Below are positions 37,950 through 55,600 of a stretch of DNA of 64,000 nucleotides, one piece after another; the first letter of the stretch is position 1, and every line of letters begins with the position of its first letter. A model generated the notes under the pieces. That model ran no database searches, was not told the DNA's origin, and was given only the letters and a program-made list of their open reading frames with translations. Position numbers and translations under genes: made by a program. Source of the stretch: an uncultured Pseudomonadota bacterium. GTDB taxonomy: Bacteria > Myxococcota_A > UBA796 > SXON01. The stretch is from positions 62,001-126,000 of the forward strand of contig CAIQVJ010000027.1 of the NCBI GenBank assembly GCA_903875225.1. The letters are read 5' to 3'.

Positions 37950-38939
37950 GTGGCGGAGGCGCAGGCGGCGTTCTTCGCCGGCACGGCGCAGCCGCCTTTC
38001 CGCTACGCCCAGCCGGGAGAGCTGCACGCGTGGCAGGAGCGCCTTCGGGCGATGCCCGTGCCCCGGATGCACTCGTTCAGCGGTCTGCTGGCCGACGCTC
38101 TCGCCTCATTTCACCGCATGGCGGAGGCCCTCCTCCGGCGCGACGCCGAGCACTTCGACCTGTGGGCGGCGCACGAGCGCTGGGAGGACGGCACCATCCC
38201 GGAGTCCCCCGGCGCCGACACCCCCTCGCCGCCCGAGCCCGCCATGGGCGCGGCTGCCATGCGACAGTCGCTGGAGTCCGGCCTCGCCGCGCGCGGCCTG
38301 GACACCTGGCATGTTCGCTGGGACGAGGTGATGAGCGCGCGAATCCTCGTGGAGTCCACGCGACAGGAGATCCGGGTGAACCCCGCCGCCCAGTTTCGGG
38401 CGAGCGACGTCCGGCGCCTGGTCGCGCACGAGATCGACGTCCATGTCGCCCGGTCCGAGAACGGCAAACGCCAGCCCCTGCAGATGTTCTCGACCGGGCT
38501 TCCCGGTAGCCTGCAGACGGAGGAGGGCCTGGCGATGTACGCGGAGCAGCACGTGGGCACCCTGTCCTTCGCCGCCGTGGAGCGCCAGCGCCGCGTGAGC
38601 GCGATCATCACGCTCGCCCGCCGCCAGGGGTTCCGGGACCTCTGGGAGCAGCTCAAGCCCGAATACGGAGCGCGGGGTGCGTTTGCCGTGGTGCTGCGGA
38701 TCAAGCGCGGCCTTGGCGACCCGGGCCGCCCGGGCGCCTATGCGAAGGACGCCGTGTATGGCCTCGGCTGGGCGGCGGTCCAGCGCTGGCTCTCGGCTGG
38801 CGGAGCGCTGGCCAACCTGTACGTCGGCAAGGTCGGCATGCACCACCCCATCGACGAGTGGATCCGGGAGGGGTGGGTGACCCCCCGCGAGGTCCCTGCA
38901 ATGTGGGGCTCCGGGGAGCGGCGCCCGCTGCAGAGGTGA
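37950..38939 (+). CDS. DUF1704/MATCAP-like metallopeptidase-family protein
   Basis: The 329-residue product matches the DUF1704 ('QEGLA motif') family, related to eukaryotic MATCAP tubulin tyrosine carboxypeptidases. It has the metal-site motif HEIDVH (H160, E161, H165) and the downstream TEEGLA (T190-A195), with conserved FSTGLPG between. The substrate in bacteria is unknown. The only standard start is GTG 37950, but the frame is open upstream back to 37749, and the family-like segment LDPARLLNPLN lies before the GTG. A rare start (for example ATC 37842, after GGAAGG) is therefore possible. Confidence 0.82.
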   Translation: MAEAQAAFFAGTAQPPFRYAQPGELHAWQERLRAMPVPRMHSFSGLLADALASFHRMAEALLRRDAEHFDLWAAHERWEDGTIPESPGADTPSPPEPAMGAAAMRQSLESGLAARGLDTWHVRWDEVMSARILVESTRQEIRVNPAAQFRASDVRRLVAHEIDVHVARSENGKRQPLQMFSTGLPGSLQTEEGLAMYAEQHVGTLSFAAVERQRRVSAIITLARRQGFRDLWEQLKPEYGARGAFAVVLRIKRGLGDPGRPGAYAKDAVYGLGWAAVQRWLSAGGALANLYVGKVGMHHPIDEWIREGWVTPREVPAMWGSGERRPLQR

Positions 38940-39059: not shown

Positions 39060-39557
39060 TCAGTCGACCTGGATCAAGCTGTTCATCGCCGGGAATTCCT
39101 CCTTGAGGAGCGCCTCGACCCCCATCTTCATGGTCAGGATCGACGACGGGCACGTGGAGCAGGAGCCCACGAGCTTCACATAGATGTCGTTGTTCTCGAT
39201 CCGAAGCAGCGTGATGTCGCCACCGTCGCCCTGCAGCGCGGGGCGGACCATCTCGTCCATGATCTCCTGGACGGCATCGAACGTGAACGCGGCGCCCGCG
39301 GTGTCGTCGGATGGCAGCACGACAGTCTCTGCGGGCAGGGGCACCTGCTCCACCTCGCTCGCCACGACGGCAGGCGGCGCCTCGGCTTCGGTCCTCGGGG
39401 TCACCGGGCCCTCGGCCTCGACCGGAGCAGGGCTGGCAACCGCCGGGGCTTCCTGAACCGGGACACGCCAGACCGGTGCCGGCACAGGAGCCGCCGCCGG
39501 AGCGGCCTCCATCCCCAACACCTTCTTGATGCCACGTTTGAGCGCAGAACGAATCAC
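39060..39557 (-). CDS. NifU-like C-terminal-domain Fe-S scaffold protein
   Basis: The 165-residue product ends in a NifU-type scaffold domain (about residues 90-165) with LQGDGGDI and the cluster-binding GSCSTCPSS, a C-x2-C. Such proteins carry and deliver Fe-S clusters. Residues 15-85 are a Pro/Ala-rich linker that is unusual for the family. It starts with GTG at 39557, with GGAGG 5 bp before it. The gene is divergent from the Nudix gene. Confidence 0.85.
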   Translation of the reverse strand: MIRSALKRGIKKVLGMEAAPAAAPVPAPVWRVPVQEAPAVASPAPVEAEGPVTPRTEAEAPPAVVASEVEQVPLPAETVVLPSDDTAGAAFTFDAVQEIMDEMVRPALQGDGGDITLLRIENNDIYVKLVGSCSTCPSSILTMKMGVEALLKEEFPAMNSLIQVD

Positions 39558-39681
39558 CTTGCCTCCACTGCCATCCGGTCATTGTACCCGCGGTCGACCG
39601 GAAGACCACCCGCAGACTGTATGCCACCACCCAGGAGCGGCGACTGGGCCGGACAGGATACACACAGCCATCGGAGTGAGC

Positions 39682-40077
39682 ATGACAGGCCTTCCCCACA
39701 TTCGTGTCGTCGCAGCGGAGATCGAGCGCGACGGGCGCTACCTGATCACCCAGCGTCGGCCCGAGGCCGCGCTGCCGCTCCTCTGGGAGTTTCCCGGAGG
39801 GCGCGTGCAGGAGGGCGAGAGTGACACCGACGCACTGCGGCGCACGGTGCGGGACCGGCTTGACGTGGGCGCGCAGGTCGGCCACCGCGTGCTCCACGTC
39901 ACGCACACCTACGACCGGTACGCGCTCGACATGGTCGTCTACCGCTGCGCGCTGGTCGGGACCCCGCGCGCGGCGCGTGTGAACGAATTCCGCTGGGTTC
40001 GCCCTGACGAATTCTCACAGTACCGCTTTCCCGGAGCGGATCAGCTGACGGTCGACGCGCTGCTCGCCGGCGGCTAG
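39682..40077 (+). CDS. Nudix-fold protein with degenerate catalytic box
   Basis: The 131-residue product has the MutT/Nudix fold (VVAAEIERDGRYLITQRRP, WEFPGG). The Nudix box should read GX5EX7REUXEEXGU. Here it runs G40-x5-E46-x7-R54 and then T55, D58, R59 and D61, so the three Glu that bind metal and catalyse are Thr, Asp and Arg. Hydrolase activity is probably lost or changed. A ligand-binding or regulatory role is an inference. The ATG at 39682 was chosen because the fold begins there. Confidence 0.8.
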   Translation: MTGLPHIRVVAAEIERDGRYLITQRRPEAALPLLWEFPGGRVQEGESDTDALRRTVRDRLDVGAQVGHRVLHVTHTYDRYALDMVVYRCALVGTPRAARVNEFRWVRPDEFSQYRFPGADQLTVDALLAGG

Positions 40078-40104: not shown

Positions 40105-42273
40105 CTACAGCCAGGCCCGCACGAACCCGTAGATGGGTCGCAATCCCGAGTGATACCAGACATCTGCGGTGTACAACCCGTAGATGCCACGCATCGCCGT
40201 GACAAGCGCGAGCACCACCACGGCCACCGTCAGGACCGCCGAGTCGCGAGCGCGCCAGGCGAGCGGGACCACCTCCGCACGTTGCGCCGCCGCATCAAAG
40301 CCTCGCGTGTCCAGCGACTCGGCGAGCATCCGGGCCCGCCGGATGCACCGGGCCATCACCGGGCGCAGGAGCGCGACCTCGAGCAACAACCAGCGTTGCG
40401 GGGGCCTCCGCCAGATCGGGCGCCCGCGAGACCGACGCGCGGCCCGGACCAGCCCCCACTCGCCGGCCACCAGCGGAACGAACCGGACCATGGCTGCGAT
40501 CATGATCACCAGCGGGTACGGCAACCGCACGGGACCGATGGGAGACCGGAGCGCCGTGACCACTCGATCTGTCGGCGTCGACGCAGCGAGCAGCAGGCCG
40601 GCTGCAGCGAGCGAGATGAACCGGGTGGACTGCGCGAGGCCATGGAGCGCGCCCTCCCGCCAAAGGTGAACGGGTCCGACCTGCAGGAGCGACGTCCTCG
40701 GCCAGTCCGACCAGAACAGCGCCTGGGAGAACGCCGTCGACCATGCGACGAGCAGCGCCCCGAACAGCAGACCCCGTCGCCATGGCTGCACCCGCGGATG
40801 GACGAACGCCACGCCCAGCAGGGACGCAGCGAGCACGCCGAGGGGTACCGCGCCCTCGAGCAGGATCACCACGACACCCAACATGCCGACGAGCCCGAGG
40901 CGCAACCGCGCGTCGAGGCCGCGATCACTCGCCGCGGCCGCCGCGATGGCCGGGGCGCGGGCCGCGCGGGCGGCTCCTCCCCACGTGCTCTGCTCCACCG
41001 GACAATCCTCCACGATGCGCCCCTGGTCCAGCCACACGACTCGGGTAGCCCAGGCGGAGACGAGGGCCGGGTCATGACTGGAAAACACCGTTGCCTTTGC
41101 GGTTCGCGCGATTGCCGCGAACAACCTCCCAAGATTGGCGGGGTCCTGGCCACTCCCCGCCTCGTCCAGCAACAGCACTCCCGGGTCGTCAGCCACCGAG
41201 GCGGCCACAGCGAGCCGGAGCCGCTGCCCGCGAGACAGCGCCTGGGGTGCCCGGTGGCCGAGTCCGTCCAGCCCAAATGCAGCAAGGAGTGCGGAGCTCT
41301 CCACCACGCGCCCCCACTCCTCGGGGCCGTACCGGATCTCTTCGACAGCGGTGGCCGAAAACAGCACAAGATCAGCGTTCTGGGGCACCTCCACCACCGA
41401 GCAGGAGCGCTCCACCCGGCCACTCGAGGGCGCGAGTCGCCCGCTCAGCAGCCCGAGCATCGTCGACTTTCCCGCCCCGTTACCGCCCACGATGGCCACG
41501 CGTTCTCCGTCTTTGACCTCGATCGAAAGGTCATGGACGCCGCGGGCGCCGCCCCCTGGGTGCGTGAACCGAACCTGGTCCGCGCGGAGCATCGTCGCTC
41601 CGGGCGCCGGCGCGGGGACGCGTTCCACGTGGAACATCTCCGCCACCGGGCCGAGCCGCACGACGCGGTCCGCGAGGTCCAGCAGGTTCAGCCGATGCTC
41701 CACGAGCAGCACCGCGACCCCCTCGTCGGCGATCTCACGCAGCAGGCTCACGATCTCGCGGGCCCCTGCCGGGTCGAGTTGGCTCAGCGGCTCGTCGAGC
41801 ACCAGGACCCGAGGGCGGGCCGCCAACGCGGCCGCGATCACCAGTCGCTGACGCTCCCCGCCAGAGATGCCCAACGGATCACGTTCCTCGAACCCCCCGA
41901 GTCCAACCCGCGCAAGGGCGGGCGCGACATCTGACGGCGAGAGCCCGGCGCTCTCCAGCGCGAATGCGACCTCCCCCGCGCAGCTGCCGGCGAGCACACA
42001 GTCGTCGACCTCCTGCCCCACGAAGCCGATCAGCGCGACACGCTCCGCACCGCTGAGGCCCCCGGGGTCTCGTCCCCCGACATGCACCTCTCCTCGCACC
42101 CGCCCGTGTCCGTGCCGCTGGGCGAGTCCCACCACCATGCGCGCGACCGTCGACTTCCCCGAGCCCGTCGGTCCCGCGAGGACCACCAGCTCCCCGGCGC
42201 CAACATGCAGGTCGAGGGGCCCGACCTCCCCTCCGGACGGAAACACATATTGAGCCTTCTCAAGATGTATCAT
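40105..42273 (-). CDS. Fused ECF transporter energy module (two ATPases plus EcfT)
   Basis: This 722-residue chain combines two ABC ATPases and a membrane protein. ATPase 1 (residues 1-215) has Walker A GPTGSGKST, signature ISGGERQRL and Walker B VLVLDEP. ATPase 2 (228-430) has GGNGAGKST, a modified signature LSRGQRLRL and Walker B VLLLDEA. Residues 458-722 form an EcfT-like domain with four to six membrane segments and the coupling motif ARMLAESLDTRGF. ECF modules drive S-components that bind vitamins or metals. This is the last gene of the cobalamin-riboswitch unit and overlaps the S-component candidate by 4 bp, so a B12 role is inferred. Confidence 0.9.
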   Translation of the reverse strand: MIHLEKAQYVFPSGGEVGPLDLHVGAGELVVLAGPTGSGKSTVARMVVGLAQRHGHGRVRGEVHVGGRDPGGLSGAERVALIGFVGQEVDDCVLAGSCAGEVAFALESAGLSPSDVAPALARVGLGGFEERDPLGISGGERQRLVIAAALAARPRVLVLDEPLSQLDPAGAREIVSLLREIADEGVAVLLVEHRLNLLDLADRVVRLGPVAEMFHVERVPAPAPGATMLRADQVRFTHPGGGARGVHDLSIEVKDGERVAIVGGNGAGKSTMLGLLSGRLAPSSGRVERSCSVVEVPQNADLVLFSATAVEEIRYGPEEWGRVVESSALLAAFGLDGLGHRAPQALSRGQRLRLAVAASVADDPGVLLLDEAGSGQDPANLGRLFAAIARTAKATVFSSHDPALVSAWATRVVWLDQGRIVEDCPVEQSTWGGAARAARAPAIAAAAASDRGLDARLRLGLVGMLGVVVILLEGAVPLGVLAASLLGVAFVHPRVQPWRRGLLFGALLVAWSTAFSQALFWSDWPRTSLLQVGPVHLWREGALHGLAQSTRFISLAAAGLLLAASTPTDRVVTALRSPIGPVRLPYPLVIMIAAMVRFVPLVAGEWGLVRAARRSRGRPIWRRPPQRWLLLEVALLRPVMARCIRRARMLAESLDTRGFDAAAQRAEVVPLAWRARDSAVLTVAVVVLALVTAMRGIYGLYTADVWYHSGLRPIYGFVRAWL
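41621..41636. other. parS-like centromere site inside the ECF transporter gene
   Basis: The palindrome GTTCCACGTGGAAC (41622-41635) lies in codons for MFHVER between the two ATPase domains of the ECF protein. Read on the coding strand, the 16-mer TGTTCCACGTGGAACG matches the known parS TGTTCCACGTGGAACA at 15 of 16 positions. It is the second such site in the window, 32 kb from the first. Confidence 0.7.
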
Positions 42274-43961
42274 GCGTCCACCTCACCCAGGCTGCGCGCG
42301 AATGGCACGGCCAACCAGCATGCCAGCAGCACGTACAGGAACCCGGGCAGGGCGACCTGGAGCAGGATGTACCAGTTTGCGAAGTGGAGCCGGTAGAGCA
42401 CCGTGTGGAGCCACAGGCCGGCGACCGTGAGCAGGGCGTTCGCGGGCGCGAAGGCGACCACCAGTCGGCCGAACCCGATCGGCCGCCCGCGGGTGATCCC
42501 CGAGAGCCACCCGAAGGCCTCACCGAGGGCGATCGCGGCGCCGGTGTAGATCAGGTCCGGCGGGCCGATGGTGCCCATCAGGACCCCGCGCCCGAGCCAC
42601 GAGCAAAGGATCGAGAGGGCGATCGTGCCCGGGCGGGGCTGCAGTTGGAGCAGCGTCGCCAGGAGGACCGTGCGACCGGCGTCGTAGAGCACACCCGTGA
42701 GCAGCGTGGCGAACGGACCCAGCACGGCGCCCACGGACATGGCCAGGATGTCTGTTGCCGTCGAGACGACGAACAAGGTGGTCCCGAACAACGCGTTTAC
42801 CATGAGATCGGTCGTGGAGGCAGCCCGCAGCCACCGCGGCAGCCTTCGCAGGGTCCACCCGAGGCCGAGAGCGCTCGTCATCAGCGTGGCGAAGAACCCC
42901 GAGGAGGCCACGGCATCGCCACGTCGGACGACGAGCGGAGTCGACGTCCCGAGGAGCGGCGCGTCGGACCCGAGCGGGGCCGCAGACACGGACAGACGAT
43001 ACTCCCCAGCCACCGCGGCGGCGACATCCACGAAGACGGGCAACACGGCGTCCACCCGCCCGCCCGCAGGGACACGGACGAGCGCAACGACGCGATCCGA
43101 GCCCCCGTCCGCCGAGCGCAGGCGCGGGCGCATGGCCGCCACGGGCTGGCCCGCGGTGTCCTCCACCACCGCGGACACCACCAGGTCGATCGGGTCTGCC
43201 GAGGCGTTGCTGAGCGGGACTGCGACGAACGCCCATGGCTCGCCGTCCGCCCGGATGCGCGCGCCCCAGCCGAGCCGCGCCAGGGCCGACTCCCAGATCG
43301 GGGACGGCAGGGGGACGGCGTCGATGGGGCGTCCGAGATCACGCAGCCCGCCCGCGTCCGCGGGAAACACGAGACCCTCGATGTGCAGCCCCGCAGAGAC
43401 GACCTCCGGGTCGCGTCGCACCGGAACCAGCGTCAGGACGTCGTCGCCGATCCGGAGCGTGCGTTCGGTGGTCAGCTCGATCGGCACGAGGCTCCGACTT
43501 CCGGCCGAGGCGAGGTGCACGGGGCCGAGGTCCGACGGAACGTCGACGCCGCTCGGCCCTGCAGTGAATCGCACGAAGATGGACGCGCTCGCGCCCCAGA
43601 CGGGCACCTCCACGCGGCCCCGCGCCGGTACCCAGGCGGAGCCCGGCGCAGGCTGCACCTCCGCGCTCCAGGGGCGGCGCAAGGGCACCACCAGCGTGGT
43701 CTGTGCCGCGCCGGAGGGCCCGGTGACGGCGATCTGCACCGCGCCGACTGGGCCGTCGAGCGCGACAAAGACGTCCCCCGCGGGCGCTGCGAGCGCCTGC
43801 CGGAGGATGGGAACCCCGGTCGCATCCAGGACGGTCAGGGTGTCCACGGGTGCAGAGGCGTGAAGCTCAACGCCGTCGCCGACCCACTCGGCCTGCACCG
43901 ACAAGGGCACGGGTTGGGCGCAGGCCAGGCCCCACAGCCCGACGCCGACCGCTCCGTTCAC
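42270..43961 (-). CDS. Membrane protein with large N-terminal beta domain and S-component-like C-terminus
   Basis: The 563-residue product starts at GTG, overlapping the upstream stop by 4 bp. Residues 1-16 may be a short signal (WGLAC). About 330 residues of beta-rich, Ig-like sequence follow, expected outside the cytoplasm. From residue 353 to 563 there are about six membrane segments. They include FVVSTATDILAMSVGAVLGP and LLTGVLYDAGR, which have the small-residue and Gly-Pro pattern of ECF S-components. Placed next to a fused ECF module and under a cobalamin riboswitch, it is a good candidate for the B12-specific subunit. The large extra domain is not known for S-components, and no family was recognised. 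Confidence 0.65.
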   Translation of the reverse strand: MNGAVGVGLWGLACAQPVPLSVQAEWVGDGVELHASAPVDTLTVLDATGVPILRQALAAPAGDVFVALDGPVGAVQIAVTGPSGAAQTTLVVPLRRPWSAEVQPAPGSAWVPARGRVEVPVWGASASIFVRFTAGPSGVDVPSDLGPVHLASAGSRSLVPIELTTERTLRIGDDVLTLVPVRRDPEVVSAGLHIEGLVFPADAGGLRDLGRPIDAVPLPSPIWESALARLGWGARIRADGEPWAFVAVPLSNASADPIDLVVSAVVEDTAGQPVAAMRPRLRSADGGSDRVVALVRVPAGGRVDAVLPVFVDVAAAVAGEYRLSVSAAPLGSDAPLLGTSTPLVVRRGDAVASSGFFATLMTSALGLGWTLRRLPRWLRAASTTDLMVNALFGTTLFVVSTATDILAMSVGAVLGPFATLLTGVLYDAGRTVLLATLLQLQPRPGTIALSILCSWLGRGVLMGTIGPPDLIYTGAAIALGEAFGWLSGITRGRPIGFGRLVVAFAPANALLTVAGLWLHTVLYRLHFANWYILLQVALPGFLYVLLACWLAVPFARSLGEVDA

Positions 43962-45475
43962 CGGAACACCGTCACCCGGTACGCGCCGGCGACCGCCCCG
44001 TCCGCGGCCCGGAACGGCGCCTCTCCAACCGCGATCCAACCGCCGTCGGGCGCCCAGACGGGCCGGAAGTCCACCGGCGAAGCCGTGGAGCAGGTGGTCA
44101 CCACCTGGCCACTGCTCGCGGAGAGCACCACGGCGCCGAACAGGTCGGTCCGGGTGTCGGACTCCCGCGGCCCTGCCCCGACGAGGAGCTCGGTTCCATC
44201 GGGCGAGGCCACGATCCCGGCGACGGACTGCCGCAGCGCGCGATCCCACCGGGGGCTGCCGTCCGGCCCGAGCGCATGCACCGTGTTCTCGGCGGGATGC
44301 GCCTCGGGCGGGCGGGCGGAGGGATCCGCGCTCCCCCATGGGATGTTGGTGCTCGTGGTCAGGTACCAGATCCCCTCGGCACGCGCGGTGGCGAAGCCCA
44401 CCCCGACGCCCACCGGAACGCCCCCCGCGACGATCGGAACCCCGGGCTGCAGCGTGGCACGGATCTGGCCCTCGTCGTCGAGTACGAACGCACGACCGTC
44501 GCCGAGCCCGGCAAAGGCGAAACGGGGACCGCGTGTGACCGCCTCCCAGAAGAACACCGTCTTGAAGTACGGCAGCAGCGGTTCGAAGGCCCGCGTCCAG
44601 CGCGGCGTCAGGTCGGGCAACGCCAGATCGACGACACCGCCGACCGGAAGATCCCCCGGGTCCGGCCCTGCGGCCGAGCGCGAGATGCCGAGCAGCACGT
44701 CGCCCGCCCCCGCGTCTGCCTGCGCGACCGACGGGTACATGAAGATGGCGTCCGCAGCGTGATCCTTCGGGAACGCCGCGAGCACGGACCCATCCGCGGC
44801 CAGCACCCACAACCGGGACCGGTTCCTGCGCGCTCCCTCCACCCCCCATCCGTGTGCGCCGGCGATGATCACCCGCCCGTCGGCCAGCGCCGTGATCCCG
44901 AACGCGCCCGGCAGCGAGTACCGACCGTACATCGGGTCCCCCGCCGGCATGGCGCTGGACTCGAGATCGTCGGCCAGCCGGAACTTCCACCTCTCGGTGA
45001 GCGTCGCAGGATCGAGCGCGTACAGGTACGCATCGGGGGATTGCTCCCCGACGTAGAGCACGGTGCCGTCCACGCTGAAGCGGAGATCCTTCACGGCCCC
45101 TTCGGCGAGCTGTCGGCGCCCGATCACCTCCCCCCCGGGCACCTTCACCAGCGCGACCAGCCCGCCCGCCGAGCCGATCGCAAGCGCGTGCCCATCGGGG
45201 CTGAACGCCAGGGCCATGCCAGCAGGAGGCAACCCCTGCTCGGCGTCGGCCCGGCGGTCCTCGAGGTCCACGGAGAACTGCGGGCGGCACTCCGGCAACA
45301 ACGGGGCCACCGCGCCCCGGACGGCCTCGCCGGGGCTCCAGGCCAACGGCTCCACCGGCCCGCCGTCCTCCTGGACGGCGTCACGCAGAAAATGAACCGT
45401 TGATCCTACGTGCTTTTCGACACGCTCGGTGCAGCCGAGCGCCGTCATCACCACGATGTATCGATACTGTATCAC
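43958..45475 (-). CDS. Beta-propeller lipoprotein in the B12 operon
   Basis: The 505-residue product starts at GTG 45475 within the upstream stop (GTGA). The short signal VVMTALGC supplies a lipobox (C15). The rest has WD40/PQQ-like propeller repeats, for example GMALAFSPDGHALAIGSAGG, DLRFSVDGTVLYVGEQ and GIVASPDGTELLVG. It is likely periplasmic or surface-anchored. Binding of a ligand or a partner in cobalamin uptake is inferred from position alone. Confidence 0.7.
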   Translation of the reverse strand: MIQYRYIVVMTALGCTERVEKHVGSTVHFLRDAVQEDGGPVEPLAWSPGEAVRGAVAPLLPECRPQFSVDLEDRRADAEQGLPPAGMALAFSPDGHALAIGSAGGLVALVKVPGGEVIGRRQLAEGAVKDLRFSVDGTVLYVGEQSPDAYLYALDPATLTERWKFRLADDLESSAMPAGDPMYGRYSLPGAFGITALADGRVIIAGAHGWGVEGARRNRSRLWVLAADGSVLAAFPKDHAADAIFMYPSVAQADAGAGDVLLGISRSAAGPDPGDLPVGGVVDLALPDLTPRWTRAFEPLLPYFKTVFFWEAVTRGPRFAFAGLGDGRAFVLDDEGQIRATLQPGVPIVAGGVPVGVGVGFATARAEGIWYLTTSTNIPWGSADPSARPPEAHPAENTVHALGPDGSPRWDRALRQSVAGIVASPDGTELLVGAGPRESDTRTDLFGAVVLSASSGQVVTTCSTASPVDFRPVWAPDGGWIAVGEAPFRAADGAVAGAYRVTVFR

Positions 45476-45780
45476 AACGTTTCGCCCCAGGCCGTGTACC
45501 ACGCGGCGCAGTCCCCCTCATCGATCACCGCTTGCCGCTCGTCGCACTGGTCCGCCCGGCCGAGCTCCTCCTCCTCCCAGGTGAAGGTGGAGCACCAGTT
45601 GGCGAAGTCCGCCTCGGAGGTGAACCCCACCGAGGTGCCCCAGCTCGTCCCGCCCTCATCCAGGCAAGACGAGAACTTCTCCTCGGCACGCGCGCACAGC
45701 TGCTCGCAGCCGTCCGGCTCCTGCTGGCAGGCCGGGAGCAGGAGCAGCGTGAGCAGCGCCATGTGCGAGGAAAACGTCAT
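45472..45780 (-). CDS. Small Cys-rich lipoprotein in the B12 operon
   Basis: The 102-residue product has a clear signal with lipobox LLPAC (C18). The mature part is small with six further cysteines that could form three disulfides, plus several Trp and Glu (FTWEEEELG, CAAWYTAWG). No family was recognised. It sits 14 bp after the propeller lipoprotein and overlaps the next gene by 4 bp. Confidence 0.7.
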   Translation of the reverse strand: MTFSSHMALLTLLLLPACQQEPDGCEQLCARAEEKFSSCLDEGGTSWGTSVGFTSEADFANWCSTFTWEEEELGRADQCDERQAVIDEGDCAAWYTAWGETL

Positions 45781-45794
45781 GCGGGGGCCAGGGC

Positions 45795-46970
45795 CTATTG
45801 CACGACGACGGCGATGGAGCTCGGACCGAGCGCGGTCGGGATGGCGGTGCCCGGCACGCAGCCCACCGGGTCCACCGGGGTGAACCCGACGGACGGCCCG
45901 GCGCCGGAGCTGGCGTAGCCGTATCCGACGGCGGCCCAGACGCTCCCGTCCGGGGCGGACGTCATCGCGCCGATGTACGCGTTGCCGAGATCGACCTCCA
46001 CCATCGACCAGTCCGTCCTGTCGAGGCAGACCAGCGACCAGACGTACCCGTCGTTGATCGTGGTGACGAGGTGGCCATCCTCGCTGCCCACCACCCCGCC
46101 CAGGTTCGCGCCCAGATCCACCTCGGTGAGGAACGGTCCGGTGAGCGCATCGGAGGCGGTGTCGAAGAGCCAGAGGCCCCCGTCGAGCGCCGGAGCGCTG
46201 TAGTCCGCGTTGAAGTAGTCCCCGCCGGTGAGGATGAGGCCGTCCGGGCTCGTGGGATCGGGCTGCAGCATCGGGTCGGGCCCGACGTCCCAGGAGTCCA
46301 CGACCTGCCACGTCGAGCAGTCGACCTTCGCGAGCGTGCCGCTCCCGTCGGCGGAGACGTAGTAGGCGAGCTGGTTCAGGGCGACGTACAGGAACCCGTT
46401 CGGGGCGACGAACATGCTGTCCGGCTCGGGGCTGCCATCACCATCATCGAACGCGGAGAGGTCCACCGAACCGGTCTGGAGGCCCGTGGCCGGATCCACC
46501 ACCATCAGCGCGTCGCCTGCAAACAGTGACACCACCAGGGAGCCGCCGCACTCCGCCACGTCGTGCGGGTTGGAGCCGTCGCCGGTGGAGAACTCGACCG
46601 CGGGAGCCGAGAAGTCCAGGTCGTCGAAGCGCTGTACGGTGCTCTCTGCGGAGCGGTTCAACACATAGGTCCTGCTCCCGAACGCGCGGACCGCAGAATC
46701 GCCGGAGACCGGGATCACGCTGTCCGTCAGCACGCCCTCGGAGGAGATGGTGACAAGCGCGCCGGTGGTGTAGTCGGTGGTCGTACCCACCAGTGTGAAG
46801 TTCACGTCGACGTCCGTGTCCGTGTCACTGTCCGCATCGGTGTCTGTATCACTGTCCGCATCGGTGTCCGTGTCCGTGTCAGCGGACGGACCGGTGTCGT
46901 CGCCGACCTTGGGGTCGCACGCAGCGAGGAGTGGTAGCAGGGCAAGCGCGGGGAGGATGAAGAGACGCAT
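45795..46970 (-). CDS. BtuG-like beta-propeller surface lipoprotein (putative)
   Basis: The 391-residue product has a lipobox LLAAC (C18), an Asp/Thr/Ser linker of about 28 residues and a propeller of YncE/DUF5074 type. It shows repeated units such as SNPHDVAECGGSLVVSLFAG, DALMVVDPATG and DSMFVAPNGFLYVALNQ. In Bacteroides, BtuG is a surface lipoprotein propeller that binds B12 beside BtuB. Here the gene lies directly after the BtuB-like receptor (3 bp gap) and under a cobalamin riboswitch. Function by analogy is an inference, because direct sequence similarity could not be tested. Confidence 0.7.
   Translation of the reverse strand: MRLFILPALALLPLLAACDPKVGDDTGPSADTDTDTDADSDTDTDADSDTDTDVDVNFTLVGTTTDYTTGALVTISSEGVLTDSVIPVSGDSAVRAFGSRTYVLNRSAESTVQRFDDLDFSAPAVEFSTGDGSNPHDVAECGGSLVVSLFAGDALMVVDPATGLQTGSVDLSAFDDGDGSPEPDSMFVAPNGFLYVALNQLAYYVSADGSGTLAKVDCSTWQVVDSWDVGPDPMLQPDPTSPDGLILTGGDYFNADYSAPALDGGLWLFDTASDALTGPFLTEVDLGANLGGVVGSEDGHLVTTINDGYVWSLVCLDRTDWSMVEVDLGNAYIGAMTSAPDGSVWAAVGYGYASSGAGPSVGFTPVDPVGCVPGTAIPTALGPSSIAVVVQ
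46804..46884 (-). repeat. Asp/Thr/Ser linker repeat in the propeller lipoprotein
   Basis: Tandem 6-bp units encode alternating Asp-Thr, Asp-Ala and Asp-Ser just after the lipid anchor. A near-identical unit reading CACTGTCCGCATCGGTGTC on the + strand occurs twice. It is the same kind of linker as at 5376-5548. Confidence 0.7.
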
Positions 46971-46973
46971 GGT

Positions 46974-49187
46974 TTACTCCTTTGAGAATTCTTCCCAGCG
47001 AACCGTGACCATCACGGTGCGTCCAGGGAGGGGGTAGCCGACGAAATCGGTGAGAGGCTTGACGACGAGGGTGTTGTCACCCGGATCCAACGGGTTCCGG
47101 TCGACCGCGATCCCGCGGACGTCGAAGAGGTTCAGGACGGAGGCCTCCACCGTCGGGAACCCCGCCGCTGGCCGCACGGATGCGCTGATGCCGTGCAGGT
47201 CACGGGGCGCTGTCGGCATCTGGTTGGCCGCGTCCTGGAACGTGGCGGAGGTGTAGGACCAGGTGTGGGACAACGTCAGCCTGTCCAACCAAGGCGCAGA
47301 TATGGACAACGATGTTGTCTGTGACACGTCGAGCGAGGGCAGGTTGGGCAGCGCGTTGTTGGCGTAGGTGGGGGCGGGGTCGAGGTTTCGAGCCAGCAGT
47401 TGCGTGACCGCCGACGAGGAGTGCAAGGCGAGATCTGAACCCGCGACGTGCGCCGCGAGGCCGAAGGCGAGGGCTCCCTCGAGGCTCCGCAGGTAGGCTT
47501 CGTCCAGGTTGACCGCCTGCTCGGTCTGCTGGGAGTTCGGGGCGTAGGTGATGAGATCGTGCGCCCGCTGCCGTGCGTACGCCACGTCCCCGCCGAGGGT
47601 GAGCGGCCCGACAGCCGTCTCGGCCACGTGCGCCCCGACCTCCACCCCGAAGCCATGTTCAGCGACGAGGTCGGTGTTTCCCGTGATCACCCCCTGATCC
47701 CCAAAGAGCTCCGTCAACTCCGGCGGGCGCGCGTAGAGGCCGGCGCTGCCGCGAAGGGTGAGCGGTCCGTAGACGTTCCAGCTCAGCGAACCCCGAGGCA
47801 ATACGTAGACGCCGAGATCGTCGGTGCCCGGTGAGACGGCCATGTCCTGGAACGGCACGTCGCCGAGCAGGTGGTTGTCGAGTACGTCGAGCTGCACCAC
47901 GGGGGAGACTGTGACCGTGCCGACCCCGGGCTTGATCCACGCGTCGGCCGAAAGGGCGGCGGTGAGCCCGCGGCGGATGCGCTCGCCGTCCGCCCCCCCA
48001 CCCAGCCCCGAGACATCGCTCGAATCAAGAAGGTCGAAGGGACGGAAATTGTCCTCTCGCGCGCGGAGGAGCAGGCTCGTGCTCAACCACCGCACCGGCA
48101 ACGTGACAGCGTCGACCTGTGCACCCGCGGTGTTCCAGACCCCGCGGTTCCACCTCGTGCCCACCGAGAGCTCGCCGGCCAGGTCCTTCACCGTCTCGTC
48201 CCGATAGGTCCACCACAGCCGCGGCTGCAGCCGCAGGCCCGGGATGAAGCCGTCGCGACGGCGATCCCCCGCGTGCCGGACCTCCGCGTCGAGCACGAGC
48301 AGGTTTCGCAGCCCCTCCCACGTGGCCTCGGAGGCGGGGCGGTAGATCGTGCCGGTCAGCTCCTCGGAGGTCCAGCTCGGGACGTCGAGCAACGAGAGCG
48401 TCGCGCCGAGGTCGGGGAGCCGAGTCCGCGCTCGCGCCACCCCGCTGGCCCGGTCGATGCGGTTGTGCACCCGGAGCGGCGTGCGGTCGTCGAAGCGGTT
48501 GAATTCGGTGCCCTGGTCGTCGAAGTAGGGCCAGTCGCCGTTGGTGTGCAGCTGATCGAACGCCAGCAGGACGTCGGTGCGCCCGAGGCAGGGTTGAGCC
48601 TCGCCGAAGGTGTGGAGCGTGCCCCACGAACCCCCGGAGGCCCCGATCGAGGCCGGGGCGTGGGTAGAGGTGAGGAGGTCGATCACGCCCCCCATGGCCG
48701 CGGACCCGTACCTCGCGGGCGCGAACCCCCTGTAGACGAGCATCTCCGAGAAGGTCGAGACCGGGAGGGTCGAGAGATCGACGACCGAGTCGCCGTTGGG
48801 GTTCAGCGGCACGCCATCGAGGAAGAGCTCGACCTGCTGGAACGTCGAGCCGCGCAGGCGCACGGCCGCGAAGTCGCCGAGCCCACCGAGGCGCCGGACT
48901 GTCGCGCCCGGCACGACGTCGAGCACCCCGGCCAGATCCGTACGCCCGGCGACATCGGCGCCGAGTGGCACATCGGTCAGGGTCGCCGAGGCCGAGCCCG
49001 GCGGCGCAGCGGCGACATCCACGGTCACGCGCGCTCCCGGCGGATCGTCGGCGGCGTCTGCCACGGGCACGGCGAGCCCGGAGGGATCGGCGGCGAGGGC
49101 GGCGGTGAGGAGAAAAAGCACGGACCATCCGGCCATCCCTGTGGAGAGGGACGGGCCAGACGGAGACCGCACGGCACGCCCCATCAC
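46974..49187 (-). CDS. btuB: TonB-dependent outer-membrane cobalamin receptor (BtuB-like)
   Basis: The 737-residue product has a signal sequence (GWSVLFLLTAALA), a plug domain (about residues 70-170, RLRGSTFQQVELFLDG, ARYGSAAMGGVIDL) and a C-terminal 22-strand-type barrel ending TVMVTVRWEEF. TonB receptors import large, scarce ligands across the outer membrane. A cobalamin riboswitch 25 bp upstream identifies B12 or a related corrinoid as the likely ligand. The first candidate start is GTG 49187 with ATG at 49184; an ATG at 49136 would still leave the signal peptide. It heads the operon that ends at 40105. Confidence 0.88.
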   Translation of the reverse strand: MMGRAVRSPSGPSLSTGMAGWSVLFLLTAALAADPSGLAVPVADAADDPPGARVTVDVAAAPPGSASATLTDVPLGADVAGRTDLAGVLDVVPGATVRRLGGLGDFAAVRLRGSTFQQVELFLDGVPLNPNGDSVVDLSTLPVSTFSEMLVYRGFAPARYGSAAMGGVIDLLTSTHAPASIGASGGSWGTLHTFGEAQPCLGRTDVLLAFDQLHTNGDWPYFDDQGTEFNRFDDRTPLRVHNRIDRASGVARARTRLPDLGATLSLLDVPSWTSEELTGTIYRPASEATWEGLRNLLVLDAEVRHAGDRRRDGFIPGLRLQPRLWWTYRDETVKDLAGELSVGTRWNRGVWNTAGAQVDAVTLPVRWLSTSLLLRAREDNFRPFDLLDSSDVSGLGGGADGERIRRGLTAALSADAWIKPGVGTVTVSPVVQLDVLDNHLLGDVPFQDMAVSPGTDDLGVYVLPRGSLSWNVYGPLTLRGSAGLYARPPELTELFGDQGVITGNTDLVAEHGFGVEVGAHVAETAVGPLTLGGDVAYARQRAHDLITYAPNSQQTEQAVNLDEAYLRSLEGALAFGLAAHVAGSDLALHSSSAVTQLLARNLDPAPTYANNALPNLPSLDVSQTTSLSISAPWLDRLTLSHTWSYTSATFQDAANQMPTAPRDLHGISASVRPAAGFPTVEASVLNLFDVRGIAVDRNPLDPGDNTLVVKPLTDFVGYPLPGRTVMVTVRWEEFSKE

Positions 49188-49212
49188 GCACCCCGAAGGA
49201 CGGCGGCAAAGA

Positions 49213-49397
49213 ACGTCGAGGCCGGTCTCCTGACTCTCGGATCGTCCGTGCGCTCTACCGCCTTCCCAGGGTCACCCGGTGGCGTATGCAGCTTGAAGCT
49301 GCATTTTGAGAGGCACGTACCCGATTACAGTGGCGGGGGCCATGCTGGAATTCCACCAGCTTCCCGTTTCACCGCGCGTTGCGCGGCACCTGGACGT
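49213..49397 (-). promoter_or_regulatory. Cobalamin (adenosylcobalamin) riboswitch
   Basis: Read on the minus strand, the 185-nt element has all the landmarks. There is GGTGCC followed by GGTGAAACGGGAAGC, then the core CCCGCCACTGT (49327-49337), CCTGGGAAGGCGG, and the B12 box GAGTCAGGAGACCGGCC (49220-49236). Outer stem P1 is ACGTC with GACGT (49393-49397 and 49213-49217). A variable arm is a 19-nt perfect hairpin at 49286-49304 (ATGCAGCTT/AAGCTGCAT). It ends 25 nt before the btuB start, which favours control of translation. The rest of the 316-bp gap (49398-49503) should hold the promoter, but I see no clear -35/-10 pair. Confidence 0.95.
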
Positions 49398-49503
49398 CAC
49401 GTACAAGAAAGAAAGAACAGCCGTGCGGTAACGTGGGGCGGGGATTGCGCAAGCCCGCATGGCCCGACGGGCGCCGGCACCCGCGCGGCCTGATGCGGTG
49501 GCG

Positions 49504-50808
49504 TCAGGGCGAGGCGCCCAACCCCCAGGGATCGGCCCCCACGGCGTGCGCGAGCGCAGCCTCCGCCCGGCGGGCATCGAAGAGCGCGCTGGTGCGCGTG
49601 GACTGCGCGCGGACGAGCGCAAGGTTCGCGTCGAGCACCTCCTGCATCGTCCCGGTACCCGCCTGCTGCCGACGCTCCTGGATCGTGAGGTTCTCGGTGG
49701 CCTGGACGATGGTATCCGCCGCCAACGCCCAGGTGGAGGCCGCCGTGCTCAGCGCCTGCACGCGCGCGAGCACATCCATCCGGATACCGGACTGCAGCAC
49801 CCGAACCTGCGCATCGAGCTGATCGGCCTGCGCGGCGGCCGCAGTGACCCCCGCGGCGGCCCGGCCCCAGGACCAGACGTTCCAGTTCAGGGTTGCACCC
49901 AGGTATGCGGTGTCCGGCGTGCCGAAGAGCCCCTGGCCGGTCTGGTGCTGGTACACGCCCATCCCCGAGATCGCGGGCAGGCGGGCCCACGACGCCGCTG
50001 CCGCGTTCGCCCGCGCGGACGCTGCAGTGGCGCGAAGCGCGAGGAGCTCCGGCCGGGATCCGAATGCATGGTCGACGAGCGCCTCGGTCGGGGGCGGAAC
50101 CCGGGGAGGATCCTCGTTCGCGCCAATGGGGCGGACCGGCACGCCCTCCGACCCGGTCGCGCTCCCGAGGCGCGCCCACGCCAGATCACGAAGGCCCTGG
50201 AGCTGGATCACCGCCTGGTTTGCCTGCGCGAGCGCGATCCGGACGAGCAGGAGGTCGTTCCGGGTGAGCGAACCCGAGGTGAACGCCACCTCCGCCACCC
50301 GCGCCCGCTCCGCCAGGCCCTTTGCCTGTTCCGTCGCGATCCCGAGCTGCCCCTCCATCTGGGCGGCGGTGAACCAGGCGTCGTTGGCCTCGAATTCAGC
50401 ATCCGCGATCGCGGCGACCTCCGAGGCCCGCGCGGCGTCCATCCCGTACCGCGCCGCCGCCACCTGCCGATCGGTCGCGATCTGGCCCGTGACGGGCACG
50501 CTCACCTGTGCGGTGAAGCTGCTCGTCACCTGATCACGCATGACGATCGGCTGGCCGGTCCCGAAGGGATCGATGCTCTGCGCCTCGTTGTACACGACCA
50601 CGTTTCCCTGCGCCGCGACACTGGGCAGACGCCCCGGCCACGCTGCCGCATAGCCGGCCCGCGCCGCCTCCCGCGCGCTGCCTGCCGCCTGGACCGAGGG
50701 GGATCGATCCGCCTGCCGGACCGCGTCTTCCAGCGTGATCCCGACGGGCTCCGGGCCCGGATCGGCATGCGCCTGCGAGAACATGAGCACGAACGTCAAA
50801 GTCAGCAT
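49504..50808 (-). CDS. TolC-type outer-membrane efflux protein
   Basis: The 434-residue product has a signal peptide ending in AHA|D and the repeated long-helix and strand layout of TolC/OprM channels (LEDAVRQADRSPSVQA, LQSGIRMDVLARVQ, AGTGTMQEVLDANLALV). It would form the outer-membrane duct for the adaptor and RND pump encoded divergently at 51529-55793. The ATG at 50808 was chosen because it begins the signal peptide; the frame remains open to 50874. It shares an 88-bp divergent control region with the tetR gene. Confidence 0.9.
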   Translation of the reverse strand: MLTLTFVLMFSQAHADPGPEPVGITLEDAVRQADRSPSVQAAGSAREAARAGYAAAWPGRLPSVAAQGNVVVYNEAQSIDPFGTGQPIVMRDQVTSSFTAQVSVPVTGQIATDRQVAAARYGMDAARASEVAAIADAEFEANDAWFTAAQMEGQLGIATEQAKGLAERARVAEVAFTSGSLTRNDLLLVRIALAQANQAVIQLQGLRDLAWARLGSATGSEGVPVRPIGANEDPPRVPPPTEALVDHAFGSRPELLALRATAASARANAAAASWARLPAISGMGVYQHQTGQGLFGTPDTAYLGATLNWNVWSWGRAAAGVTAAAAQADQLDAQVRVLQSGIRMDVLARVQALSTAASTWALAADTIVQATENLTIQERRQQAGTGTMQEVLDANLALVRAQSTRTSALFDARRAEAALAHAVGADPWGLGASP

Positions 50809-50847
50809 GATGGTTCCAGAGTGGGAGAACGTCGTCGCCAATGAAGC

Positions 50848-50877
50848 TTGACGTATCAATACATGAATATACATTCA
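50848..50877 (+). promoter_or_regulatory. tetR/efflux promoter with overlapping operator palindrome
   Basis: TTGACG (50848-50853) and TACATT (50870-50875) with a 16-bp spacer form a promoter for tetR. The imperfect palindrome TGAATAT-ACATTCA (50864-50877; 6 of 7 paired) covers the -10 region, as expected for a TetR-type self-repression site. The whole region is AT-rich against a GC-rich background. It also lies upstream of the divergent tolC gene. Confidence 0.5.
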
Positions 50878-50896
50878 CATCACGAATGGCAAGCTC

Positions 50897-51532
50897 ATGA
50901 CTGAACCCGCATCGAAAGTCCCCCGCCGCGAACGAGAGCGGCTCCGGCATCGCCAGGAGATCCTCCACGCCGCGCGGCACCTCGTCGGCGCCCGGGGCAT
51001 CGAAGGCCTCACGGTGGAGCAGGTGGCGCGCGAGGCGGAGTTCGCCGTTGGCTCGATCTACCGGCACTTCAGCTCCAAGGAGGAGCTGATCGTCGCGGTG
51101 GTGGGCGATTTCGCGGACGACATCATCGAGGAGATGTCCGAGATCGTGGCCGAGCCCTCGCCCTACCTCGATCGGCTGGAGCGGTTCGTCCGCCTCTCGC
51201 TCCAGCACCAGGCGGAGTGCCAGCCGCTGTTCGAGGCGCTGCTCACGCTCCCCGGCCAGTTTCCCGTGCCGGGCACCACGACGGGAGACCAGATGATGGA
51301 GATGCACCGCCGCTACCTGACCGTGCTCGAGGCGATCATCGCGGCGGGAGAGGCGGAGGGCGTCCTTCGGCCCGGCGCGCGGTTGAGCCACGCGGTCGCG
51401 TTGGCGGCCCTGCTGCAGGGGTATGCAAAGGTGTGCTGGATGGGCGGCGTGGCGTTGGCGACCGACCCGGCGAGCGAGGTCCTCGCCTCGTTCCTGGATG
51501 GGTCACGCGCACGCACGGGAGGTGCCACGTGA
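50897..51532 (+). CDS. TetR-family transcriptional regulator
   Basis: The 211-residue product has an N-terminal helix-turn-helix (LTVEQVAREAEFAVGSIYRHFSSKEEL, about residues 40-65) and a helical ligand-binding C-terminus. It is the first gene of the efflux operon and overlaps the adaptor gene by 4 bp (GTGA), so it probably represses its own unit. The inducer is likely a pump substrate, but its identity is unknown. Confidence 0.92.
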   Translation: MTEPASKVPRRERERLRHRQEILHAARHLVGARGIEGLTVEQVAREAEFAVGSIYRHFSSKEELIVAVVGDFADDIIEEMSEIVAEPSPYLDRLERFVRLSLQHQAECQPLFEALLTLPGQFPVPGTTTGDQMMEMHRRYLTVLEAIIAAGEAEGVLRPGARLSHAVALAALLQGYAKVCWMGGVALATDPASEVLASFLDGSRARTGGAT

Positions 51533-52644
51533 AGCGTCTTGCGGCCCTCCTCGCCGGACTCGTGATCCTGGTGGTGCTCTGTGGCCTCACGACGTGGCGC
51601 GTCGTGCAGGCCATCACGCGGCGGTCGGAGGCCGAAGCGGCGAGCGCGATGCCGACCAGCACCCCGGTGGAGGTGCTCGTCGCCGGGCCGCGGGACCTCG
51701 TCGACAAGGTCGCCGTGGCAGGCACGCTCCGCGCGCTCCACGAAGCGGACGTACCGGCAGAGGTGCCCGGGCGGGTCGCCGCCGTGTTCGTGGACGTCGG
51801 CGCCAACGTGTCCAACGGTCAGGCCCTCGCGCGGCTGGACGACGAGGACCTCCGACTGCAGGTCCGCCAGGCCGAGGCCGGCCTGGCCGCAGCCAGGGCG
51901 GGAAGCGAGGGTGCCACCCGCGATTTTGCAGGGGCGACCTCGGTTGCGGAGGTCGGCGGGGTGACCGACGCCCAGCTCGTGGGCGCCCGGAGCCGAGCCG
52001 CCGCCGCGGAGGCACAGGTACAGCAGGCGGGCGCGGCGCTCGCGATGGCGGCGGCACGCCAGGCGCACGCCATCATCCGCGCGCCCTTCGCGGGCGTGGT
52101 GGTGCGACGCAGCACCGACATCGGCAGTCAGCTCATGCCTGGAACCCCCGTGTTCGGCATCGCCGACCTCTCCGAGCTGGAGCTGGTGCTCGAGGTGGAC
52201 GAGCGGGTCGCCGCTGCCATCCAGCCCGGGCAGGCGGTGGGCGTGAGCAGCGACACCGTCGCGAACCTGCCGGATGGTGTGGTGAAGACCGTGGCACCGA
52301 TGCTCGACGCGGCGTCGCACAAGGCGCAGGTCGTCGTCGGGCTGAAGGCCACGCCCGGGCTCTTCGGTCACGGCGGCGCGACGGCGACGTTCCGGCTCGG
52401 CCACGCGGAGGGGGTGATCGCGGTGCCCACCGGCGCCATCCTCGACGACAACGGCGAGCAGGTCGTGTACGTGGTGACCGGCACCACCGCCCAGCGCACG
52501 GTGGTGCAGAAAGGGGTCCGCGACGGCGACTGGGTCGAGGTCCGGGGCCTGAAGCCCGGATCCCAGGTTGTCGTGACCGGTGGCGCCTACTTGAGTGACG
52601 GCGCCGCGGTGGCCGTGCGCACGCCCGGCAAGGACCCGTCATGA
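51529..52644 (+). CDS. RND efflux periplasmic adaptor (membrane fusion protein)
   Basis: The 371-residue product starts at GTG. It has an N-terminal membrane anchor (about residues 5-25), a lipoyl/barrel-sandwich domain (PGRVAAVFVDVGANVSNGQALARL), a helical hairpin (residues 105-170), then beta-barrel and membrane-proximal domains. It links the RND pump with TolC. It overlaps both tetR and the pump gene by 4 bp. Confidence 0.92.
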   Translation: MKRLAALLAGLVILVVLCGLTTWRVVQAITRRSEAEAASAMPTSTPVEVLVAGPRDLVDKVAVAGTLRALHEADVPAEVPGRVAAVFVDVGANVSNGQALARLDDEDLRLQVRQAEAGLAAARAGSEGATRDFAGATSVAEVGGVTDAQLVGARSRAAAAEAQVQQAGAALAMAAARQAHAIIRAPFAGVVVRRSTDIGSQLMPGTPVFGIADLSELELVLEVDERVAAAIQPGQAVGVSSDTVANLPDGVVKTVAPMLDAASHKAQVVVGLKATPGLFGHGGATATFRLGHAEGVIAVPTGAILDDNGEQVVYVVTGTTAQRTVVQKGVRDGDWVEVRGLKPGSQVVVTGGAYLSDGAAVAVRTPGKDPS

Positions 52645-55600
52645 GCGACGGCTTCAACCTCTCGGACATCGCGATCCGACGACCGGTCTTCACCACGATG
52701 GTGATGGTCGCGATGATGGTGCTCGGGTTCGTGGCGTTCAACCGGCTCCCGGTCGAGCTCTTCCCGGACATGTCGTTCCCGCTGATCACGGTGAACACCG
52801 CCTACCCGGGCGCTGGACCCGAGGAGGTCGAGAAGCTCGTGACCCGACCGATCGAGGACGCCGTCAACTCCCTCGGCGGCATCGACACCGTGCGGTCCTA
52901 CTCTCGCGAAGGGTTCTCCAGCGTGGTGATCATGTTCCGCATCGGCACCGACACCAAGGTGGCGAACATGGATGTGCGCGACCGGGTCTCCGATGCGCGC
53001 CGCTCGATGCCATCGGAGGTGATGGAATCCTCCTACATGAAGCTCGACCCGTCTGCGACGCCCGTGGAGACGCTCGTGCTCTCCGGGAGCGCGGATCCGC
53101 TGGTGATCCGCAGGCTGGCCGAGGACGTCGTGCGCCCCGCGTTGGAGCATGCCGAGGGCGTTGCGGCCGTGACGGTGCGCGGCGGTGAGGAGCGGGAGAT
53201 CGAGGTGCAGCTCTCGGCCGAGAAGCTCGCCCGATACGGGATGTCCATCGCCCAGGTGAGCCAGGCGCTCGGGCTGCAGAACGTGAACGTGCCGACCGGG
53301 CGCGTGGACTCGGGGACCAAGGAGGCCACCCTGCGGCTGCAGGGGGAGGTCACGCGCGTGGACGATCTCGCGGCGATCGTGGTCACGAACGCGGCAGGCG
53401 CACCGGTCACGGTCGGCGACCTCGGTCAGGTGGTCGACACCGTGAAGGAGCGCAGGACGCTCGTGCGCGTGAACGGCAAGGATGCCGTCGCGATCGACGT
53501 GCTCAAGCAGAGCGGGGGCAACACCGTCGCCGTCGCCGACGCGCTGCTCGAGCCCATCGCAGAGCTGCAGGCCGCGCTGCCCCCGGGCGTCCACCTGGAC
53601 AACATCATCGACTCCTCCGTGTTCGTGCGTGAGAACACCGAGCACGTCCAGGAAGAGCTCACGCTGGGCGCCCTCGCGGCGATCGCCGTCATCTTCCTGT
53701 TCATGCTCGACTGGCGCTCCACGCTGATCTCGGCGCTTGCGCTCCCGACGTCGATCGTCACCACGTTCTTCGGCATGTACCTGGCCGGGTTCTCGCTCAA
53801 CATGATGTCGCTGATGGGGCTCTCGCTCTCGGTCGGCTTCCTCGTGGACGACGCGATCGTCGTCCGGGAGAACATCTTCCGGCACATCGAGGCCGGGGAG
53901 GATCCGTTCACCGCGGCCAGTCTGGGCACCAAGGAGATAGCGCTCGCCGTACTCGCCACGACGTGCACGATCCTCGCCGTGTTCGTGCCCGTGGGGTTCA
54001 TGGGCGGGATGATGGGGCAGATGTTCCGCCAGTTCGCGCTGACAGTGTCGATCGCCGTCGCCGTCTCCCTGTTCGTCGCGTTCACCGTGGACCCGATGCT
54101 CTCGGCCCGCCTGGTCAAGCCGCACACGGAGCACAAGCGCGCGTGGGGACCGCTGGGGCTCTGGCAGGACGCCCTCGCGGCGCTCGACTCCGGCTACCGC
54201 GTGGCGCTGCACTGGGCGCTGCATCACCGTTGGCTGACCGTCGCGGGGGCCACCGTGGTCTTCTTCTCGAGCTTCGGCGCAGTGGCGCTGATGGGCACCG
54301 AGTTCACCCCCAAGATGGACCGCGGACAGTTCGTGGTGAACGCCACGCTCCCTCCCGGCACCGCGCTCGACCACACGACCGAGGTGGCCGGAGAGCTGGA
54401 GACCATCCTGCGGGCCGACCCCGACATCACGCTGGTGTACACCACGATCGGTGTGAACCAGGAGGCGCGCAAGATCGCGATGCGCGTCACCGCCGTGGAC
54501 AAGTCCGCACGCGCCCGGGGCCTGCAGCAGATCACCTCGGATCTGCGAAGGAAATTCGCGGACGTCCCGGGGATCCGCTTCTCGTTCAGCGAGGCGGGCA
54601 TCATCGAGAACGACTCCGACTTCCGCCAGGCGGACATCGTCCTGAACCTCCGCGGCCCTGAATTCCGGACGCTCGGCCTCCTGTCGGATCAACTGGAGGC
54701 GGCGGTGGCCACCACGCCGGGCGTGACGGACCCCGACACCAGCTTCGCGCCAGGGCTCCCGGAGCTGCATGTCGTGCTGAACCAACAGCAGGCCGCCGAG
54801 CTGGGCGTCACCTCCGTGCAGGCCGGCATGGCGCTCCGCAGCGCGATGGTGGGCGACATCGCCACACGCTTTCGCGACGGCGAACACCAGACGGACGTGC
54901 GGGTTCGGCTCCGCTCCGGGGACCGCTCCGATCTGGCCTCGATCGGCTCGATCCCGCTGATGACGTTTGCCGGGCTCACGCCCCTGCGTCAGTTGGCGAC
55001 CATCGAGCAGACCAGCGGTCCCGCGACGATTGAGCGGGAAGCTCGTCAGCGCCAGATCACGATCAGCGCCGGCGTGACCGGTCGTTCACTCGGAGAGGTC
55101 GTCGCCGAGATCCAGGCCAGGATCGACAAGATGAGCCTGCCCCCGGGCTACACGACCTCGTTCTCTGGCCAGGCGAAGCAGATGGCCGAGACAAGCCAGG
55201 CCTTCGGCGTCGCGATGGCGCTTGCGATCATCTTCATCTACGTCGTGCTCGCCAGCCAGTTCGAGAGCTTCGTGCATCCGGTCACCATCATGGTCTCGCT
55301 GCCATTGGCGATCATCGGTGCATTCCTGGGGCTGTTCCTCACCGGAAAGGCGCTCGGAATGGCCTCGATGATCGGGGTGGTGCTGCTGATGGGCCTCGTG
55401 ACCAAGAACGCGATCCTGCTCGTCGATCGGGCGAACCAGGTCCGCGAGGAGCAGGGCGTGGGCGCCATCGAGGCCCTGCTGGAGGCGGGACCGACCCGGC
55501 TCCGCCCGATCGTGATGACCTCGTTGACCATCGTGCTCGGCATGCTGCCGACGGCGTTGAGCCACTCCTCCGGGTCGGAGTTCCGGTCGCCGATGTCGAT

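Follow-up and report, generated by a model that had tools for sequence, protein, structure and literature searches.

The usual pump for vitamin B12 at the inner membrane is BtuCDF, and ECF pumps are known mostly from Gram-positive bacteria. ECF transporters are not known to require a substrate-binding protein, whether soluble or lipid-anchored. For the many Gram-negatives that are auxotrophic for B12 and possess BtuB without BtuCDF, the inner-membrane route of the vitamin is largely open (PMC6072759). An ATP-driven ECF system has been assigned to cobalamin in Lactobacillus and other Gram-positives (ECF-CbrT, CbrTUV), where BtuCDF is missing, and BtuM of Proteobacteria represents an S-component-like B12 protein of Gram-negatives which is linked to BtuB. 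At the outer membrane, the BtuB–BtuG loci of Bacteroides, which go with BtuCDF, combine a cobalamin riboswitch, BtuB beside a lipid-anchored propeller of the BtuG fold, and further small surface lipoproteins (PMC10404256, PMC6143338), BtuG having been reported, by BLAST criteria, only from Bacteroidetes (PMC6143338).

The DNA analysed here is a window of 64,000 nt, within which all positions are given, from a Gram-negative relative of the Myxococcota whose draft genome comprises 7.19 Mb and is 94.8% complete. Its minus strand carries, at 49408–40105, a cobalamin riboswitch followed by six tightly packed genes, and this operon resembles each of the known systems in part. The features listed above for the Bacteroides loci are found again, but in Myxococcota relatives, with an ECF pump in the place of BtuCD and with a second, WD40-like propeller. 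In Lactobacillus, the ECF module of CbrT also serves other S-components, FolT2 among them, whereas the module found here is single, dedicated and a fused A-A'-T protein; moreover, its S protein has no sequence relation to CbrT and carries an extracytoplasmic domain. BtuM is solitary, has about 22 kDa and depends on an essential Cys, while the present operon includes an ECF module and an S protein of 563 aa without an invariant Cys. YkoEDC (group I ECF, 5EDL) provides the closest solved S-component fold, although YkoE, which is short and lacks a lipoprotein domain, differs in ligand and regulation. BtuCDF, in turn, also moves B12 over the inner membrane behind BtuB, but belongs to an unrelated ABC type. 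The parts are therefore of known kinds, while their combination, the S family, the fused extracytoplasmic domain and the BtuG-type protein outside Bacteroidetes appear to be new; no earlier description of a BtuB–ECF operon for B12 was found in the open-access literature, where ECF-CbrT and the solitary BtuM are described. We hold it to be very probable that the operon imports corrinoids by ECF in place of BtuCDF, transport and B12 binding being inferred. For the Myxococcota relatives, it would represent a concrete and testable answer to the question of the inner-membrane route, namely an ECF pump whose S-component belongs to a new family.

A preliminary description had read this stretch as one minus-strand unit of six open reading frames, with gaps of 3 and 14 bp and otherwise 4-bp overlaps, headed by a full cobalamin riboswitch. 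The coordinates bear this out, only the extent of the riboswitch having been corrected to 49408. The aptamer (RF00174, 49203–49408, minus strand) matches the whole model, positions 1–189, with 109.3 bits against a gathering cut-off of 31.5 (E 1.8e-26), is the only such match in the 7.19-Mb genome, and has its 3' end 15 bases ahead of the start codon of the receptor gene. The receptor and propeller-1 genes are separated by 3 bp and the latter is 14 bp away from the gene of the Cys-rich lipoprotein, while the junctions Cys-rich/propeller-2, propeller-2/S and S/ECF are the 4-bp overlaps. A promoter and terminator scan gave no convincing terminator inside the operon (one match, with 2.8 expected by chance), and no clear expression platform emerged from the folding of the riboswitch 3' region (z = +1.0). 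From the riboswitch family and its position, scarce cobalamin would be expected to permit expression of the operon; repression by B12 has not been shown.

The first gene (46974–49187, minus strand) encodes a TonB-dependent receptor of 737 aa with the plug (PF07715) and beta-barrel (PF00593) domains, both above the Pfam cut-off. When a profile of 23 relatives was searched against all PDB sequences, E. coli BtuB came first (E 8.7e-40), followed by BtuB1, BtuB2 and BtuB3 of Bacteroides, and these ahead of PqqU, CirA and FepA. The NCBIfam equivalogs for BtuB, TIGR01779 and PRK10641, were not met, with 56 and 63 bits against cut-offs of 599.7 and 836, and for this reason the protein is called BtuB-like and not a BtuB ortholog by the NCBIfam standard, a putative assignment based on profile ranking and context.

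Its neighbour, propeller-1, is a lipoprotein of 391 aa (45795–46970, minus strand) with the lipobox LLAAC and an Asp/Thr-rich linker, and its likeness to BtuG had been missed in the earlier reading. A confident AF2 model was obtained (pLDDT 93.1); among its 17 best fold matches in the PDB, 16 were BtuG or its homologue 3dsm (TM 0.71–0.77), non-BtuG propellers ranking after them with lower scores; 8BMX, 8BMY, 8OKV, 8P97 and 8P98 are BtuG or BtuB–BtuG structures (PMC10404256). Identity to BtuG was only 13–15% in the fold alignments, and in profile searches of the PDB the BtuG chains stood near the top without reaching significance (E 0.007–0.08). The protein itself had no Pfam match, and one relative touched DUF5074 marginally (E 0.0099). 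Propeller-1 meets the description of a lipoprotein with a beta-propeller of BtuG type whose gene lies next to btuB, and would have been missed by the BLAST criteria of PMC6143338. By its predicted fold it may be regarded as BtuG-like, cobalamin binding and surface exposure being inferred, which would extend the BtuG-type surface catcher of B12, earlier called 'exclusive' to Bacteroidetes (PMC6143338), to a further phylum. The small lipoprotein that follows (102 aa, 45472–45780, minus strand) shows, in an alignment of 16 members, six conserved cysteines besides that of the lipobox, and no Pfam match above the cut-off.

The distribution of the operon was followed through its S protein, which a single-sequence search detected in 41 of the 63 genomes of the order. 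A profile added two genomes of the order and six of other families in the class, so that, of the 379 genomes sampled from the phylum, 49 have the protein, all of them within the class; searching genome contigs with an 8-row subset of the alignment gave 9 loci. The named relatives are metagenome bins, mostly titled Myxococcales, Myxococcota, Deltaproteobacteria, Pseudomonadota or proteobacterium. Two public bins of the lineage (L133, L134) bear the titles Klebsiella pneumoniae and Bifidobacterium breve, evidently a labelling error in these metagenome records.

The preliminary description had proposed a search for the same gene order behind cobalamin riboswitches, and this order does recur, both in the order of the source organism and in a second one. 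Within the former, 37 neighbourhoods were examined, the core of which is propeller-2–S–ECF; the riboswitch heads the receptor gene in 14 of them, mostly as riboswitch–receptor–propeller-1–Cys-rich–propeller-2–S–ECF, and lies in one locus (L041) between ECF and receptor. In the second order of the class, two loci (L167, L168) show riboswitch–receptor–propeller-1–propeller-2–S–ECF. Elsewhere the halves are split: riboswitches head receptor–propeller-1, with or without the Cys-rich gene, in L173, L178, L183, L188 and L190, or further lipoproteins, and many genomes outside the window's family have propeller-2–S–ECF without a riboswitch detected by Rfam nearby. In two relatives, the riboswitch directly heads propeller-2–S–ECF (L043) or propeller-2–S (L045), without a receptor gene. 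Since it stands directly on propeller-2–S there, the riboswitch does not act only on btuB; action on btuB alone, with the operon serving another ligand, would have spoken against the original reading. Content and order thus recur in dozens of related genomes, far beyond chance, and this conservation, together with L043 and L045, rules out a chance placement of the ECF half. As a separate observation, two families of lipoproteins that match nothing in Pfam also stand behind cobalamin riboswitches in the order (L172:2163-3328, L173:11514-13399, L174:1802-3033, L176:10740-12463); one is marked by ...SRFDW...WYCQ, the other by ...VFENPF..., and both are probably further surface corrinoid binders.

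The gene content of the genome bears on whether such a route is needed. The B12-dependent MetH is present, while the B12-independent MetE and CbiC (corrin synthesis) are absent, as they are in 60 and 59, respectively, of the 63 genomes of the order, and therefore methionine synthesis should need imported corrinoid. In the family of the window's genome (G000:C19:5024-5746 and other f1 genomes), the MetH activation domain has diverged much further (E about 1e-36) than elsewhere, where it mostly reaches E 1e-100 or better, and the matches often have an internal stop codon; the reactivation domain is possibly shortened or split in this family.

As to alternative importers, the genome gave no match to the BtuF family (Peripla_BP_2) and none to an SbmA/BacA-type importer. 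The sole FecCD match is weak (45 bits) and was rejected as BtuC on account of its ZnuA-like metal-binding neighbour and its ABC-3-type metal permease frame. The absence of btuCDF, which the preliminary description could state only for the window, thus extends to the genome at the level of gene content, as far as its roughly 95% completeness allows, and the operon is the only candidate corrinoid import route found. Moreover, the genome has no second CbiQ/T component beyond the operon's own, from which it follows that the ECF module is dedicated. The earlier inference that ECF replaces BtuCDF is supported by these two findings and by the riboswitch on propeller-2–S in relatives.

Across the order, the S protein and strong FecCD permeases tend to occur in place of one another. 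Strong FecCD was missing from 33 and present in 10 of the genomes with S, and was missing from 6 and present in 14 of those without it (Fisher p=0.0007); with stratification, p was 0.016 by permutation within families and 0.020 by genus. None of the 34 genomes with a completeness of at least 90% lacked both. The strong permeases in 10 of the 43 genomes with S may be siderophore or B12 systems.

On these grounds, a dedicated uptake system for corrinoid (vitamin B12) across both membranes is proposed. The BtuG-like surface lipoprotein would catch cobalamin and hand it to the BtuB-like receptor, which would bring it into the periplasm, both steps being inferred from structure and neighbourhood. 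There, propeller-2, the extracytoplasmic domain of S or both may take it over, and the S domain, powered by the fused A-A'-T module, would finally move it over the inner membrane at the expense of ATP; these later steps are likewise inferences.

It could also be that only the receptor, propeller-1 and the Cys-rich lipoprotein handle B12, and that propeller-2–S–ECF is merely co-transcribed with them and serves another nutrient, such as cobalt, a haem-like tetrapyrrole or a precursor of thiamine. The two halves are indeed separate loci in many genomes, and the closest fold of the S domain is that of 5EDL, which we take to be YkoE, a thiamine-related S-component and not a B12 protein. Nevertheless, this explanation is unlikely, although it cannot be set aside entirely, given that the riboswitch of L043 and L045 sits directly on the half in question, that the presence of S trades off with FecCD, and that the genome would be left with MetH, no MetE, no corrin synthesis and no B12 importer; cobalt, in particular, is not needed for B12 synthesis when CbiC is absent.

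Import of corrinoid by the ECF system is also to be weighed against a conventional B12 importer hidden in the unassembled 5% or so of the genome, with ECF as an extra or low-affinity route. The draft state of the assembly and the 10 relatives that carry both S and strong FecCD leave room for it; however, strong FecCD is missing as well from four more genomes belonging to the genus and from nearly all S-bearing genomes of the family, and no riboswitch-linked btuCDF was found in the genome, so that we give this explanation very little credit.

The inner-membrane proteins themselves were resolved further. The last gene (40105–42273, minus strand) encodes the fused ECF energy module of 722 aa, recognized as such from the beginning, in which two ABC_tran domains (PF00005) and one CbiQ/EcfT domain (PF02361, 64 bits) are joined; its best NCBIfam match is an ECF ATPase. 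Both Walker A and both Walker B motifs are present, with the signatures ISGGE and a slightly degenerate LSRGQ. The T part is a separate gene in some relatives, and L039 and L041 have a fusion of the two ATPases with T apart, presumably as in YkoD/YkoC.

The S protein (563 aa, 42270–43961, minus strand) had been described as an S-component-like membrane protein, which holds for its C-terminal six-helix domain, from about residue 345; most of the protein is a large, probably lipid-anchored extracytoplasmic domain that had been overlooked; it spans about 340 aa and is preceded by a lipobox-like signal, WGLAC. Of the 38 family members, 24 have a lipobox, and several of those without it have truncated or wrongly called starts. 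The membrane domain was modelled by AF2 with a pLDDT of 91.4, and its best PDB fold match was the ECF S-component 5EDL (probability 1.00, TM 0.66/0.72), with a Foldseek E of only 0.047; the next matches had probabilities of at most 0.57. Pfam and PDB searches revealed no Pfam family for this domain and no sequence link to any known one. Profile matches to designed Ig-like proteins were discarded, as they concern the N-terminal region alone. In the absence of a sequence link by any method, the protein is, by predicted fold and context, an S-component of a new family, its substrate binding being inferred. That it might be a divergent CbrT or BtuM, a known B12 S-component arrived in a Gram-negative, is hardly credible despite the shared general fold and the Gram-negative origin and genetic link to BtuB of BtuM, since a 41-sequence profile searched against the PDB gave no match at E up to 10, CbrT and BtuM included, neither name appears among the 50 best fold matches, the family has no invariant cysteine as in BtuM, and BtuM organisms are almost always without an ECF module (PMC6072759), which is here encoded in the same operon.

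The most constant neighbour of the new S family, usually directly upstream, is propeller-2, a WD40-like lipoprotein propeller of 505 aa (43958–45475, minus strand) with the conserved motif TNIPWG..P..RPP..HP and present in 32 of the 37 loci of the order. That it acts with the extracytoplasmic domain of S as a capture module is conceivable, the chances being nearly balanced and leaning slightly against it. Together, the two may break the rule that ECF transporters need no substrate-binding protein, a rule which the operon calls into question. Equally tentative, and just short of an even bet, is the wider proposal that the new S family is a hybrid between ECF and binding-protein ABC systems, with its own in-built replacement for BtuF and linked to a BtuG–BtuB gate which would have arisen or spread outside Bacteroidetes. 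The weak points of corrinoid import by ECF in general are the lack of any experiment, the E of 0.047 for the S fold, the missing sequence link to known S-components, the 10 genomes with both S and strong FecCD, the units without a nearby riboswitch outside the window's family and the draft genome.

Propeller-2 is tied to corrinoids independently of ECF, since in another genome (L184:6594-13355, G059:C85) a homologue follows a cobalamin riboswitch next to a 1400-aa CobN-like protein. This locus, which also includes an ExbB/MotA-type protein and DUF2149, represents a second corrinoid locus employing the propeller-2 family.

Next to the operon, at 49504-53000, lies an efflux unit, with a TolC-type outer membrane protein on the minus strand and a TetR regulator, an HlyD/CusB-type adaptor and the beginning of an RND-type pump on the plus strand. 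On the other side, at 37950-38939, lies a bacterial protein with a MATCAP domain (PF08014), whose name derives from microtubule tyrosine carboxypeptidase, accompanied by NifU-like and NUDIX proteins (39060-40077).
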